Below, one piece after another: positions 59,775 to 64,000 of a stretch of 64,000 nucleotides of DNA (its first letter is position 1; each line of letters opens with the position of its first letter). The stretch comes from Modestobacter versicolor. GTDB lineage: Bacteria > Actinomycetota > Actinomycetes > Mycobacteriales > Geodermatophilaceae. Both the position numbers and the translations under genes were made by a program. Location of the stretch: the NCBI RefSeq assembly GCF_014195485.1, contig NZ_JACIBU010000001.1:3348001-3412000 (forward strand), written 5' to 3'. The notes beneath the pieces were generated by a model, which worked only from the letters and a program-made list of their open reading frames with translations, was not told the origin of the DNA and searched no databases.

Positions 59775-60452
59775 TCAGACCTCGTCGCGCTCGTCGACCG
59801 GCAGGTCGGCGCCGGCGTCCGCGGGCCGCCGGAACCCGCCGGTCAGCTTCTTGTAGAGGAACCAGCCGACGCCCAGCACGACCGCGGCCACGACGGCGTA
59901 GTCGAGGTAGTGCAGGTTCTGCTGGACGAAGTCGCCCGCCGCGACGCCCAGCCCGATCAGCACGCTGTTCCAGATCAGGCTGCCGGCCGTGGTGAAGAGC
60001 AGGAACTGCGGCAGCGGCATCTTCACCACGCCGGCGGGCACGGAGACGAAGCTGCGCACGATCGGCACCATCCGGCCGAAGAAGACCGCCGACCGGCCGT
60101 GCCGCTCGAACCAGGCGAACGTCCGGTCGACGTCCTCGGTGGCGACCAGCGGCAGCCGGTCGAGGAAGGCGTGCGAGCGGCGCGGGCCCAGCGCCCGGCC
60201 GACCCAGTAGAGGACCAGCGCCCCGACCACCGAGCCCAGGGTGGCGAACAGCACGACCGGGACCACGTCGAGCCGGCCGTCGTTGATCAGCACCCCGGCG
60301 GCGCCGAGGACCGCCTCGCTGGGGATCGGCGGGATGACGGTCTCGATCAGGATCGTCAGGCCGACGCCGACGGCGCCGAGCTTGTCGACCAGGTCGAGCA
60401 GGAAGCCGGTGATCCCGCCTTCGTCGGACGCAGCGGCGGCGAGGACGGACAT
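59775..60452 (-). CDS. DedA family membrane protein
   Basis: A 225-residue VTT/DedA-fold protein. ILIETVIPPIPSEAVLGAAG holds the E-x-PxPxE-type motif, FGRMVPIVRSFVSVPAGVVKMP the conserved FxRxxPxxR-G motif, and GSLIWNSVLIGLGVAAGD the terminal amphipathic region. DedA proteins act in membrane homeostasis, likely as polyprenyl-phosphate or phospholipid translocases. The C-terminal tail is acidic. ATG start 60452. Divergent from the amidohydrolase gene. Confidence 0.95.
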   Translation of the reverse strand: MSVLAAAASDEGGITGFLLDLVDKLGAVGVGLTILIETVIPPIPSEAVLGAAGVLINDGRLDVVPVVLFATLGSVVGALVLYWVGRALGPRRSHAFLDRLPLVATEDVDRTFAWFERHGRSAVFFGRMVPIVRSFVSVPAGVVKMPLPQFLLFTTAGSLIWNSVLIGLGVAAGDFVQQNLHYLDYAVVAAVVLGVGWFLYKKLTGGFRRPADAGADLPVDERDEV

Positions 60453-60509
60453 GGCCCCACGGTATCGGCGCCGCCTGTGTGCCGCCCTGCTCCACGCCCG
60501 GGACGACCG

Positions 60510-60515
60510 TAGGGT
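60510..60515 (+). promoter_or_regulatory. Probable -10 box for leaderless amidohydrolase transcript
   Basis: TAGGGT ends exactly 7 nt before the ATG at 60523. No SD is present. Same arrangement as argG and the patatin gene. The -35 is unclear. Confidence 0.45.
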
Positions 60516-60522
60516 CGCGGGC

Positions 60523-61830
60523 ATGGTGCACCGCTTCACCGCCCGCGCCGCCGTGGTCGGGGACCGCGCCGGCACCGTCGTCCCCGATGCCGTGCTCGAC
60601 GTCGAGGACGGCGTGATCAGCTGGGTCGGCCCGGCGGCGGACGCCCCGTCGCTCGCCGCGGACGCCGAGGTGACGCGGCTGCCGGGCGTGCTCACCCCCG
60701 GCATGGTCAACACCCACTCGCACGCGCCGATGGTGCTGTTCCGCGGCCAGGGCGAGGGGCTGCCGCTGGACCGCTGGCTGCGCGAGGTCATGTGGCCGCG
60801 GGAGGCCCGGCTCACCCCCGAGGACGTCGAGGTGGCGATGACCGCGGCGTCGGCGGAGATGCTGCGGCACGGGGTGACCACCAGCGTGGAGATGTACTTC
60901 CACCCCGACCGGATGGCCGCCGCCGTGCACCGGACCGGCGCACGCGGGCTGATCACCCACCCGCTGATCGAGCTGCCGGGCATGGGCACCTTCGACGAGC
61001 AGCTCGCCCGGGCGGTCGACTCGGCCGGCGCCGGCGACGACCAGGTCGAGTACGGCATCGGCCCGCACTCGGCGTACACGGTGCCGCTGCCGGTGCTCAC
61101 CGCCGCGGCGCAGGCGGCCCGCGAGCACGACCTGCTGCTGACCGTGCACGTCGCGGAGACCGCCACCGAGGGCGACGAGCTGCTGGCCCAGCACGGCCTC
61201 AGCGTCCCGGCGCTGCTGGCGTCGCACGACGTGCTCGGCGGGCGGGTGCTGGGCGCCCACTGCGTGCACATGGACGACGGCGACCTCGAGCTGTGGCGGG
61301 AGTACGACGTCGCGGTGGCGCACTGCCCGGGCAGCAACACCAAGCTGGCCAGCGGCACCGCCCGGCTCCGCGACATGCTCGACCTGGGCATCCGGGTCGG
61401 CATGGGCACCGACGGCCCGGCGTCCAACGACAACCTCGACCTGTTCGAGGACCTCCGGCTGGCCGCCCAGCTGGCCCGGCTGCGCGAGCGGGACGCCACC
61501 GCGCTCACCGCGCCGGAGGCGTTCTGGCTGGCCACCGGGGGTGCGGCTGCGGCGATCGGGCGCGACGACCTCGGTCAGCTGACCGCCGGGCGCCGGGCGG
61601 ACCTGGTGCACGTCGACACCGAGGACATCGCGTTCGTGCCGGTCGGCGACGTCACCGACCTGCTCACCCACCTGGTCTGGTCGGTGGGCTCGCGGCACGT
61701 GCGCGACACCTGGGTCGGTGGCCGGCAGGTGGTCGCCGCCGGGGCCTCCACCACGGTCGACGAGGCCGAGCTGCGGGCCGACGTGCAGACCCGGGCGATG
61801 CGGCTCGCTGGCCGTCGAATCAGCCTATAG
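60523..61830 (+). CDS. Amidohydrolase family protein (cytosine deaminase/S-adenosylhomocysteine deaminase-like), 3' end altered by insertion
   Basis: A 435-residue metal-dependent TIM-barrel deaminase. Metal ligands: NTHSHAPMVLFRGQG (HxH), HVAETATEGDE, GAHCVHMDDGDL, and the Asp in GMGTDGPASNDN. This pattern is that of the TrzN/MtaD (5'-methylthioadenosine/SAH deaminase) branch. ATG 60523 follows TAGGGT by 7 nt. Its last 12 codons lie in a 36-bp direct repeat; a second copy at 63385-63420 carries the likely ancestral ending, where TRAMRLAGR runs straight into TAG. The present gene gains the tail RISL. Confidence 0.92.
   Translation: MVHRFTARAAVVGDRAGTVVPDAVLDVEDGVISWVGPAADAPSLAADAEVTRLPGVLTPGMVNTHSHAPMVLFRGQGEGLPLDRWLREVMWPREARLTPEDVEVAMTAASAEMLRHGVTTSVEMYFHPDRMAAAVHRTGARGLITHPLIELPGMGTFDEQLARAVDSAGAGDDQVEYGIGPHSAYTVPLPVLTAAAQAAREHDLLLTVHVAETATEGDELLAQHGLSVPALLASHDVLGGRVLGAHCVHMDDGDLELWREYDVAVAHCPGSNTKLASGTARLRDMLDLGIRVGMGTDGPASNDNLDLFEDLRLAAQLARLRERDATALTAPEAFWLATGGAAAAIGRDDLGQLTAGRRADLVHVDTEDIAFVPVGDVTDLLTHLVWSVGSRHVRDTWVGGRQVVAAGASTTVDEAELRADVQTRAMRLAGRRISL
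61779..61814 (+). repeat. Direct repeat, left copy (attL-like)
   Basis: 36 bp inside the amidohydrolase 3' end. It matches 63385-63420 at 33 of 36 positions, including an unbroken 21-bp core (61788-61808) that begins GACCCGGGCG and ends GGCTCGC. Two of the three differences are synonymous in the amidohydrolase frame. Confidence 0.8.
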
Positions 61831-63249
61831 CTCTGACCCACAAGGGCCCAGGGTGATGGACTCGTCGGCTTTCGGGGCGAGGACCGGATCCACCTGGCCA
61901 AGAGGCGACTGCTCCGAAGGCCAGATGGCCGCGCCGAGCCTGAGCTGATCAAATACCGTATCGACGGCATTAGGAGTGTCGGGTGCAAAAGCGGACCCGA
62001 GCTCAAGCATCCGCCTGGCCGCCCAGTGAACAGCCTGCTGGTAGCTCTGAGTAAAAGTCTGGTCGGACAGTCTCGAGCTCCTGCCGCCGTGAGCCACCGA
62101 GCTTCGGACCCCGTAAAGGTCCAAGTACTGCGCCCTGCGATCCAAGCGCTTGACGGGATCTCGCTCCAGTAGTGCAAATCTGTCCGCCATCGCGCCGCCG
62201 GGGACGGCGCTCCTTCCCGAAAGTAGGGCATCCATTGCGACACCCAGCGCAAGCGAGGAGTCGTCTGCCTCCGACGTAAAGAAGGCCTCACCAAACCATC
62301 GAGCCGATGTCCGTATGCGTGGTCCAATGACCCACGGTTTCATGGCCGTCTCAACGGCATTGAGGGTGTCACTAGACAGGAGTGCAGCGTCGAGAGGTAG
62401 TGGGTCTGCCGAGTACCAGTGTGTGGTTTGACTACTCGGATGCAGATCTGTGACCGTGAGCGGTTGTGCTACTAACTCCATGCGGCTCGAACCAGGAAGA
62501 AACTCGGTGACGGCTGACCGATCGAGCACGAGTCCACGAACACCCGGGCGGTTGACTTCAACGCTGCTAGCTCGGTAAGAGGATAGTTCGCGCGTCATGA
62601 GAAGGCATAGGTCCACCAGCTCCCCTGCCGCGCGCTGTGCCGCTCGGAACGCGCCGTCGTCCTGCCTGTGACTCCATGTGGCCACCGCAACTGGCGAAAG
62701 CCCGTCAACAGCGGGTCTGGCGAGCACGCGGTCTCGCAGCCAGGCTTCAGCGGCTTCACTTCCAACCGTGCACCGTTCGCCCGCCCGCCTGTTGACGAGC
62801 TCGAAGAAGTCCCGATCAGCTTTCCCAACCACGGCATCACCGATGGCAAGTGGTTCACTGTCCCATCTGACGTTGGCGAGGAGCACGATAGTGACCGCTT
62901 GTCGAGCGGACATCACCCTAGACAGTGCGCGTTCGATGAATTCGGAGACGTTCGCCGCTTCGGATGCCGCAACGGTCATGGTTGCGATCAGAGCCCACAG
63001 ATTCTCCTCACTCCAGCGCGTCTTGATCTTCTGCTCGTGAAGTAGAGCTTCCATGGCGTCTTCGAGTGCATCAATGCCGTCGGGCGTAAAGGTCACCGAG
63101 CCTCTCGGACTCGGGAGGGAGGCCATGCCTGATCGACGGTACGACAGAACCGACCAGCCGTACACCCACGGTTCCTGCGCAGGGGAGGGGTGAACCGTGG
63201 ATGCTGCGGTCACCAGTGAGCGGATTGCTTCGTTGAGACGTCGAGGCAC
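61825..63249 (-). CDS. HEPN-like (Apea-type) protein with C-terminal RX4H motif; candidate antiphage RNase
   Basis: A 474-residue protein without a recognised full-length family. The N-terminal 300 residues look like a mixed alpha/beta sensor or scaffold region with no catalytic motif I can name. Residues about 300-415 (ARWFGEAFFTSEADDSSLALGVAMDALL and YLDLYGVRSSVAHGG) match the HEPN/Apea layout, with catalytic Arg382 and His387 (R-X4-H). HEPN proteins of this kind are usually metal-independent RNases in defence. GTG 63249 is the longest start, with GAGAG immediately ahead; ATG at codon 42 is an alternative. Base composition differs sharply from neighbours. Its TAG overlaps the amidohydrolase TAG in CTATAG. 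Confidence 0.65.
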   Translation of the reverse strand: MPRRLNEAIRSLVTAASTVHPSPAQEPWVYGWSVLSYRRSGMASLPSPRGSVTFTPDGIDALEDAMEALLHEQKIKTRWSEENLWALIATMTVAASEAANVSEFIERALSRVMSARQAVTIVLLANVRWDSEPLAIGDAVVGKADRDFFELVNRRAGERCTVGSEAAEAWLRDRVLARPAVDGLSPVAVATWSHRQDDGAFRAAQRAAGELVDLCLLMTRELSSYRASSVEVNRPGVRGLVLDRSAVTEFLPGSSRMELVAQPLTVTDLHPSSQTTHWYSADPLPLDAALLSSDTLNAVETAMKPWVIGPRIRTSARWFGEAFFTSEADDSSLALGVAMDALLSGRSAVPGGAMADRFALLERDPVKRLDRRAQYLDLYGVRSSVAHGGRSSRLSDQTFTQSYQQAVHWAARRMLELGSAFAPDTPNAVDTVFDQLRLGAAIWPSEQSPLGQVDPVLAPKADESITLGPCGSEL

Positions 63250-63384
63250 CTCTCAAGCTTGCCCGTTACAGGCGACAGTTGCGATGGCAGTGAGTTCGGT
63301 CTGCCGATGAGACGTGCGGACCGTCACGAGGCGCCTGGACTGCTCCTGGGGTGAAAGTTGTCTCCCGTTGGTTAGTGACAGGAG

Positions 63385-63420
63385 CGATGTGCCGACCCGG
63401 GCGATGCGGCTCGCCGGCCG
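63385..63420 (+). repeat. Direct repeat, right copy (attR-like) with ancestral amidohydrolase ending
   Basis: Second copy of the 36-bp repeat; its 21-bp core is at 63394-63414. In the amidohydrolase reading frame it encodes DVPTRAMRLAGR and is followed at once by TAG (63422-63424). This is probably the original 3' end of the interrupted gene. Confidence 0.8.
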
Positions 63421-63428
63421 CTAGCCGC

Positions 63429-63908
63429 TCAGCCGGCCGCCTCGGCCTGCAGGTCGTCGGCGGTCCAGGTGTAGAGCTGGCCGTCCAGCACGACGGTGAC
63501 CCACCCGTCGCACAGCTGGGCGGTGTCACCCAGGTCGGGCCACGAGCCACCGCCGTCGAACGGCATGCCCACGCTGGGCAGCGCGGTGCAGTCGGCCGGC
63601 GGGGTGGTGCCGGGCACCAGCTCCATCGTGGCGCGGACGCTGCCGCTGTCGTCGCCCGCGGCGTCCCCGGGGCGGACGACGGTGACGGCGGAGCCCACGT
63701 CGCGGGTCCAGTCCGGCACCAGCCCGGCGGGGGCGGCGTCGGCGGTGCGGTAGTCGCGGGTCTCGGTGTGCCCCTGCAGCTCGGCCAGCATCGCGCCGGG
63801 GCCGTCGACCCCCGACGGCATGGTGACCGCCACCCCCGCCGCGGCGGCCGCGGCGACCCCGGCCACCGCCGTCACGGTCCCGGCCACGACCTTCCTCGTG
63901 CTGACCAC
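63429..63908 (-). CDS. Predicted secreted hypothetical protein
   Basis: A 159-residue protein with a signal peptide or N-terminal anchor (KVVAGTVTAVAGVAAAAAAGVAV, residues about 5-27) and a globular domain with two cysteines (PPADCTALPS and TAQLCDGWV) that may pair. It ends in WTADDLQAEAAG. I do not recognise the family. GTG 63908 has GGGAGG six nt ahead and is preferred over an upstream in-frame GTG at 63932. Before the insertion it would have been the direct convergent neighbour of the amidohydrolase. Positions 63933-64000 hold no further gene that I can see. Confidence 0.7.
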   Translation of the reverse strand: MVSTRKVVAGTVTAVAGVAAAAAAGVAVTMPSGVDGPGAMLAELQGHTETRDYRTADAAPAGLVPDWTRDVGSAVTVVRPGDAAGDDSGSVRATMELVPGTTPPADCTALPSVGMPFDGGGSWPDLGDTAQLCDGWVTVVLDGQLYTWTADDLQAEAAG

Positions 63909-64000
63909 GCTGGTCCTCCCTCGTCCGGCCACCGGGCGGTGGCGGTACGAGCATCGGTCAGCGGGCCCTGCCCGGGCGTCGCCCGGCGGGACGATCTGCG

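Follow-up and report, generated by a model that had tools for sequence, protein, structure and literature searches.

Organization of the insertion locus

The window analysed here is a stretch of 64,000 nucleotides, comprising bases 3348001-3412000 of contig 1 of the Modestobacter versicolor genome, which totals 4.59 Mb in two contigs. Towards its right end an amidohydrolase gene is followed by a short stretch of DNA enclosed between two direct repeats (Table 1). The initial annotation had described repeats of 36 bp with 33 of 36 positions identical, an exact 21-bp core and a spacing of 1606 bp, and recomputation bore out each of these figures. A single large open reading frame of 474 aa on the minus strand fills the inserted DNA, and the layout is compact, with the cargo stop codon (61825-61827) directly adjoining that of the host gene (61828-61830). 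On the other side of the cargo gene, no integrase-like motif or remnant of another gene was noticed by eye in six-frame translations of the 135-bp stretch. The locus has no Rfam match, a promoter scan found none, and a terminator scan returned one site, compared with 0.9 expected.

Table 1 Features of the insertion locus, numbered from the first base of the window
Feature	Position	Strand	Remarks
Amidohydrolase gene (TRZ/ATZ-like), integration target	60523..61830	+	Pfam Amidohydro_1; relatives end ...AGR*
attL-like repeat	61779..61814	+	Host-derived as far as the core, then from the element
Left 21-bp exact core	61788..61808	+	Crossover inside
Inserted DNA between the repeats	61815..63384		61% GC
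Cargo gene	61825..63249	-	At most 474 aa, no known relatives; start codon (GTG) tentative, may lie further downstream
C-terminal part of the cargo (aa 285-440)	61930..62397	-	YGVRSSVAHG; HEPN-like Rx4H at R382/H387
Stretch from cargo start to right repeat	63250..63384		135 bp
attR-like repeat	63385..63420	+	From the element as far as the core, then host-derived; original gene end kept
Right 21-bp exact core	63394..63414	+
Original stop codon of the amidohydrolase frame (TAG)	63422..63424	+	Stop here in most relatives, usually TGA
Right-flank gene	63429..63932	-	Putative secreted protein

The product of the target gene matches Pfam Amidohydro_1 at 2.3e-60, which makes its earlier designation as a deaminase plausible but unproven, as the best NCBIfam model, a TRZ/ATZ family hydrolase, is reached with 331 of the 540 bits required. 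The gene is widespread, being present at E 1e-100 or better in 103 of 112 genomes of the family, Geodermatophilaceae.

The DNA between the repeats is foreign by composition. Its GC content is 61.1% compared with 75.2% for the window, in agreement with the initial description of an AT-richer segment carrying a single gene, and the three 1-kb windows (step 500) that fall below 68% GC within the window all lie at this locus. The difference extends to the codon positions, where GC fractions are 0.665, 0.522 and 0.651 in the cargo gene and 0.788, 0.494 and 0.984 in the amidohydrolase gene, so that the third positions differ as 0.65 to 0.98. The repeat taken alone is about a 1-in-400 event, since a 33/36 match of a 36-mer within 3 kb was found at one of 400 random window places and a better one at none of the 400; the strong evidence is therefore its coincidence with the change in composition and with the break in the alignment at an empty site.

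The empty site and its distribution in the family

Such an empty site, which the initial annotation had proposed to look for in relatives, is present with the same gene order in a related genome (G104). In a blastn comparison, bases 60401-61814 of the window align to positions 179-1590 of the G104 sequence and bases 63385-63999 to positions 1555-2171, and the two flanks thus overlap on G104 by exactly 36 bp, at 1555-1590. There the amidohydrolase ends in ...AGR* and is followed by a homologue of the right-flank gene with 71% identity over 162 aa, the aligned part of which begins 21 bp past the amidohydrolase stop codon. The cargo gene, at E 1e-5 or better, is found in one of the 112 family genomes, the window's own, and together with the empty site this speaks against an arrangement shared throughout the family, which had been named as the outcome that would overturn the proposal.

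The DNA downstream of the amidohydrolase gene was compared in 89 of the 102 other genomes carrying the gene, to about 4-8 kb in 79 of them and to about 1.3-1.5 kb in ten more; the remaining 13 (G002, G019, G033, G035, G038, G058, G071-G075, G079 and G082) lay outside the survey. A low-GC run starting at the end of the gene was seen in none of the 89. Among 80 downstream stretches, the window alone combines a low-GC run from the gene with a return of the gene end, here at 23 of 24 positions, the best return of a 24-mer among the 79 others being 21/24, found 2.2 kb downstream in L074. Windows of 300 bp below 66% GC occur further downstream in five of the 79 others (L088, L090, L106, L107 and, twice, L139).

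A separate difference from G104 lies just past the right end of the window, where about 5.2 kb (L055:7873-13102, about 3412873-3418102 of contig 1) have no blastn match in that genome and the flanking matches stand about 120 bp apart. With 74.6% GC the region is host-like; either this genome gained it in an older insertion or G104 lost it by deletion.

Reciprocal chimeric structure of the two repeats

The two repeat copies were aligned with 25 relatives, drawn from 29 other loci of which four did not fit the search motif. Upstream of the core, eight columns show the base of the left copy in the relatives, in 25 of 25 at six columns and in 23 and 21 of 25 at the other two, and the base of the right copy is found in none of the 25, save one relative at one column. 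Downstream of the core the pattern is reversed: the right copy is matched by 23, 22 and 20 of the 25 relatives at columns 38, 44 and 45, respectively, and the left copy by none. At columns 46 and 47, which lie beyond the repeat and belong to the stop codon, the pattern is blurred because 17 of the 25 relatives use TGA and share the base of the left copy, the right copy having TAG. The two repeats are thus reciprocal chimeras around the 21-bp core. Within the 21 bp, host sequence gives way to element sequence at the left junction, and the reverse change occurs at the right one, which is the pattern required when a circle integrates by a single crossover. The alignment documents such a conservative reciprocal exchange, located in a short core of identical sequence at a gene 3′ end. 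As for inverted core-type binding sites around an overlap of 6-8 bp, the best inverted repeat within the core is imperfect, with 6 of 7 positions paired in its arms, and does not exceed chance, as 22% of 5000 shuffled sequences do as well.

These results agree with the earlier view of the left copy as the present 3′ end of the amidohydrolase gene, and of the right copy as the original end, which continues in frame to its TAG codon and matches the ends of the relatives. They also fit the suggestion of an incoming attP-like site that mimics the host gene, with one amendment, namely that the differences in the left copy are not only synonymous. From 61809 on the target gene is derived from the element (GCT GGC CGT CGA ATC AGC CTA TAG), and its product ends in ...AGRRISL* compared with ...AGR* in the relatives; the copy of the element codes for identical residues up to AGR and then for RISL, and the host protein consequently gains four residues.

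Added residues by themselves prove nothing, since longer tails occur in at least three relatives that lack an insertion signature. In L092, L101 and L138 (genomes G061, G064 and G056, respectively) the amidohydrolase has longer, unrelated tails, the GC content downstream is host-like, and no insertion signature was found downstream of the gene. The amidohydrolase stop codon of L101 and L138 lies within a short inverted repeat built around GATCA. A different inverted repeat, read by eye as GTGGAGT (or GCGGAGT)...ACTCCAC with a variable centre, lies immediately 3′ of the stop codon in six Modestobacter genomes (L016, L019, L020, L021, L022 and L024) and is absent at the site in the window; it has the appearance of a hairpin or terminator that recurs.

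The chimeric repeats suggest the following course of events. A circular DNA bearing a near-copy of the amidohydrolase 3′ end as its attP would have recombined once with the chromosomal attB, with the crossover falling inside the 21-bp core. The element would have supplied a substitute gene end, ...AGRRISL* for ...AGR*, leaving the product nearly unchanged, and the original end would have been displaced 1.6 kb downstream. The enzyme responsible would most likely have been a tyrosine integrase of the phage or island type, with a protein-coding 3′ end as its site of action. A tyrosine recombinase, since lost from the element, is probable because of the long identical core and the location of the target at a gene end. 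Large serine integrases usually act on attP and attB sites that share only a few bases. Elements of tyrosine recombinases are known at the 3′ ends of protein genes, where one repeat restores the gene end (PMC5704250).

The cargo gene

The cargo protein stands largely by itself. Its only Pfam match is below the cut-off (E 0.26, 12 bits compared with the 27.9 needed), no match of usable score was found in PADLOC, PHROGs or NCBIfam, and no relatives were found among solved structures, plasmids, phages and viral contigs, nor in the genome_contigs collection by a search that finds close relatives only. Structure prediction, run without relatives, reached a pLDDT of 33.8, too low for a comparison of folds. 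In samples beyond the family, matches were obtained in 3 of 397 genomes of the order, 4 of 394 of the class and 9 of 396 of the phylum, the window's own genome being counted each time, and all matches other than that of the window itself are weak.

One of these weak matches appears meaningful. L047, from a genome of another family (G235), aligns to the C-terminal stretch of the cargo at E 0.005 with 25% identity over 106 aa, and it is judged a plausible relative because a YGxRSxxAHG motif is common to both. When L047 and L147-L154 were scanned for this motif, L047 alone contained it. The alignments of L048, L148, L152, L154, L147, L149-L151, L153, L155 and L156 look like chance, and these loci were rejected as cargo relatives. 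No relative was found for the N-terminal half of the cargo. In L047 the HEPN-like motif is part of a 538-aa frame, and the locus also has a frame on the opposite strand with a HEIGH metallopeptidase motif, which presumably resembles the ImmA/IrrE proteins of mobile elements.

The C-terminal third of the cargo contains LYGVRSSVAHGG, in which R382-SSVA-H387 conforms to the Rx4-6H pattern of HEPN proteins. The Rx4H spacing fits the motif of HEPN ribonucleases, although in these the arginine is typically followed by N, D or H; a role in defence or as a toxin is given as the usual context of HEPN genes (PMC3710099). No HEPN profile match was obtained for the cargo, and Pfam reports no HEPN family. 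The balance of the motif evidence tips towards a HEPN-type ribonuclease, and the protein would probably be used in defence or as a toxin. As no HEPN profile is matched and the predicted model was too poor for a fold comparison, the cargo is termed HEPN-like and not a member of HEPN, a name that draws on one motif and one weak relative.

Searches for an integrase and for further copies of the core

The element contains no integrase as judged from its single large reading frame and from profile searches in Pfam, PADLOC, PHROGs and NCBIfam, as had been concluded from the initial inspection. In the whole genome, for which the integrase families PF00589 and PF07508 were searched, the resolvase family PF00239 not being among them, PF00589 is matched at five places, none of them at the insertion, and PF07508 at none. 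Two of the five, inspected by eye, resemble XerC and XerD. The other three genes, two of which are short frames, share their loci with tRNA-Ala, tRNA-Met and tRNA-Asn genes, located about 0.1, 0.2 and 1 kb from the PF00589 match, respectively. The frames on the tRNA-Met and tRNA-Asn loci (L053 and L054, 215 and 204 aa, near 1606491 and 1643966 of contig 1) are probably remains of older islands. The frames of the five resident recombinases, compared by tblastn with the 80 downstream stretches, gave not even a weak match, the test being an insensitive one.

The initial annotation had also proposed a search for the core elsewhere with other cargo or an integrase, and this came back empty for the family genomes, the viral contigs and genome_contigs. 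The exact core is present twice in the window's genome, in the two repeats, and once each in five of the 111 others. At up to two mismatches there is one further place in the window's genome (C1:3983107-3983127), where the 21-mer GACCCGGGCGATGCTGCTGGC is two mismatches off the core. This 21-mer is also present, as a single copy in each case, in many other genomes of the genus and probably sits in a conserved gene. Viral contigs do not contain the exact core; one of them (L075) has a version in synonymous codons, which was dismissed as chance since it lies inside a 1277-aa frame, presumably a phage tail gene, and is not repeated. A core variant is found in ten records of genome_contigs (84,980 species), all from Modestobacter and with one match each, and this collection consequently offers no second element. 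The DNA of the element has no match to plasmids or phages at E 0.01. For the attachment arms, the best 8 of 20 phage and 8 of 53 plasmid records for the right arm and the best 8 of 16 phage records for the left arm all stand at E 0.2 or worse. No integrase-bearing or larger relative at the insertion site was found in the core search of the family, the viral contigs, genome_contigs or the 80 downstream stretches.

Origin of the element

The empty site, the chimeric repeats, the composition and the limited spread together support the original proposal of a repeat-flanked insertion at a protein-coding att site. The insertion is a real, att-flanked, integrase-free, one-gene insertion, and it belongs with the reduced genomic islands: it has attL- and attR-type direct repeats at a specific site, and within its single large reading frame no integration genes were found. 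As regards its history, the lack of an integrase implies that the gene either was deleted from a larger island or acted in trans. We consider it most likely, with a probability of roughly 70%, that the locus is a reduced, CIME-like island at a protein-coding att site, formed by a single attP x attB crossover through a tyrosine-type integrase that has since been lost, and this reading follows from the present 1.6-kb form without an integrase. The element would accordingly have been larger at an earlier time. The decay of islands to CIMEs is known and favours the loss of the integrase (PMC5704250).

The most serious competitor, which we nevertheless regard as unlikely, is a minimal element without an integrase from the start, in which a circle with a single gene would have been moved in trans by a helper, either a phage or an island, with an attP that fits this gene end. 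The compactness of the insertion, with adjoining stop codons on one side and 135 bp without a noticed gene remnant on the other, is neutral to slightly in favour of such action in trans. However, no second copy of the element was found, the cargo being present in one of the 112 family genomes, no helper was found, the viral contigs offering one degenerate match to the core and no exact one, the genome has no exact core outside the two repeats, and the three resident recombinase genes that are not Xer-like sit on tRNA loci. The more specific version, that of an integrase-free one-gene satellite which relies on helper phages or islands for mobilisation in trans, uses the mimicked protein-coding att site and delivers a HEPN-type defence gene, is more doubtful still.

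Improbable as well is an insertion assisted by homology, in which a foreign circle carried by chance part of the end of a related amidohydrolase gene. The attP and attB sequences are 92% alike over 36 bp and in the same reading frame, and the copy in the element thus looks derived from such a gene, but for a RecA-type exchange a 36-bp match containing 3 mismatches is short, and the match stops at the gene end with no longer amidohydrolase stretch alongside. The least probable origin is transposition in which the target-site duplication, at 36 bp, would be unusually long and its two copies would have drifted later. This would account for foreign DNA between two copies of a host stretch and for the three differences within the repeats as later mutations, but no transposase was found in Pfam, NCBIfam and other profile searches, none of the 25 of 36 inverted-repeat pairs listed joins the ends of the element, and the three differences are distributed in such a way that the outer part of each copy is the host-like one, an arrangement expected by chance in about 1 of 8 cases by our estimate.

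Significance and comparison with known systems

As a case of site-specific integration at a protein-coding gene, the locus stands out for its small size and clean structure, with an empty site available for comparison, and it shows how the C-terminus of a host protein can be exchanged through a gene end copied in an attP. It suggests that the amidohydrolase 3′ end serves as an integration site in Modestobacter; at the level of titles and abstracts, no published account of this att site was found in the literature on Modestobacter integrases, Geodermatophilaceae genomic islands and amidohydrolase attB sites. The orphan HEPN-like gene is a candidate defence gene, and if more integrase-free, att-flanked single genes are found, the travel of lone defence genes becomes testable. 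Should mobilisation in trans prove true, the element would represent a satellite in its smallest form, consisting only of two att arms and a single effector.

With the HEPN superfamily ribonucleases the cargo has in common the C-terminal Rx4H motif, and it differs in that it lacks a usable match in Pfam, PADLOC, PHROGs and NCBIfam and a relative for its N-terminal half (PMC3710099). Among integrated elements, islands placed by tyrosine recombinases are known at the 3′ ends of protein genes such as guaA, rplL, rpsI, trmE and yicC; as in the locus described here, one direct repeat includes the gene 3′ end and the gene is left intact, whereas those islands carry their own integrase, and no amidohydrolase is named as a target in the portion of that account available (PMC5704250). 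The closest resemblance in organization is to CIMEs, which derive from ICEs or IMEs once equipped for transfer and integration and likewise have attL- and attR-like flanks, no integrase, foreign cargo and a restored target gene end, while the insertion here is only 1.6 kb long, with one gene and no sign of former transfer genes, and no tandem partner was seen at the site. Finally, the substitution of the host gene end has a counterpart in prophage e14 and phage 21, which integrate at icd of Escherichia coli and supply a slightly different substitute for the 3′ end of that protein gene; these are prophages that carry their own integrase and replace a longer stretch.
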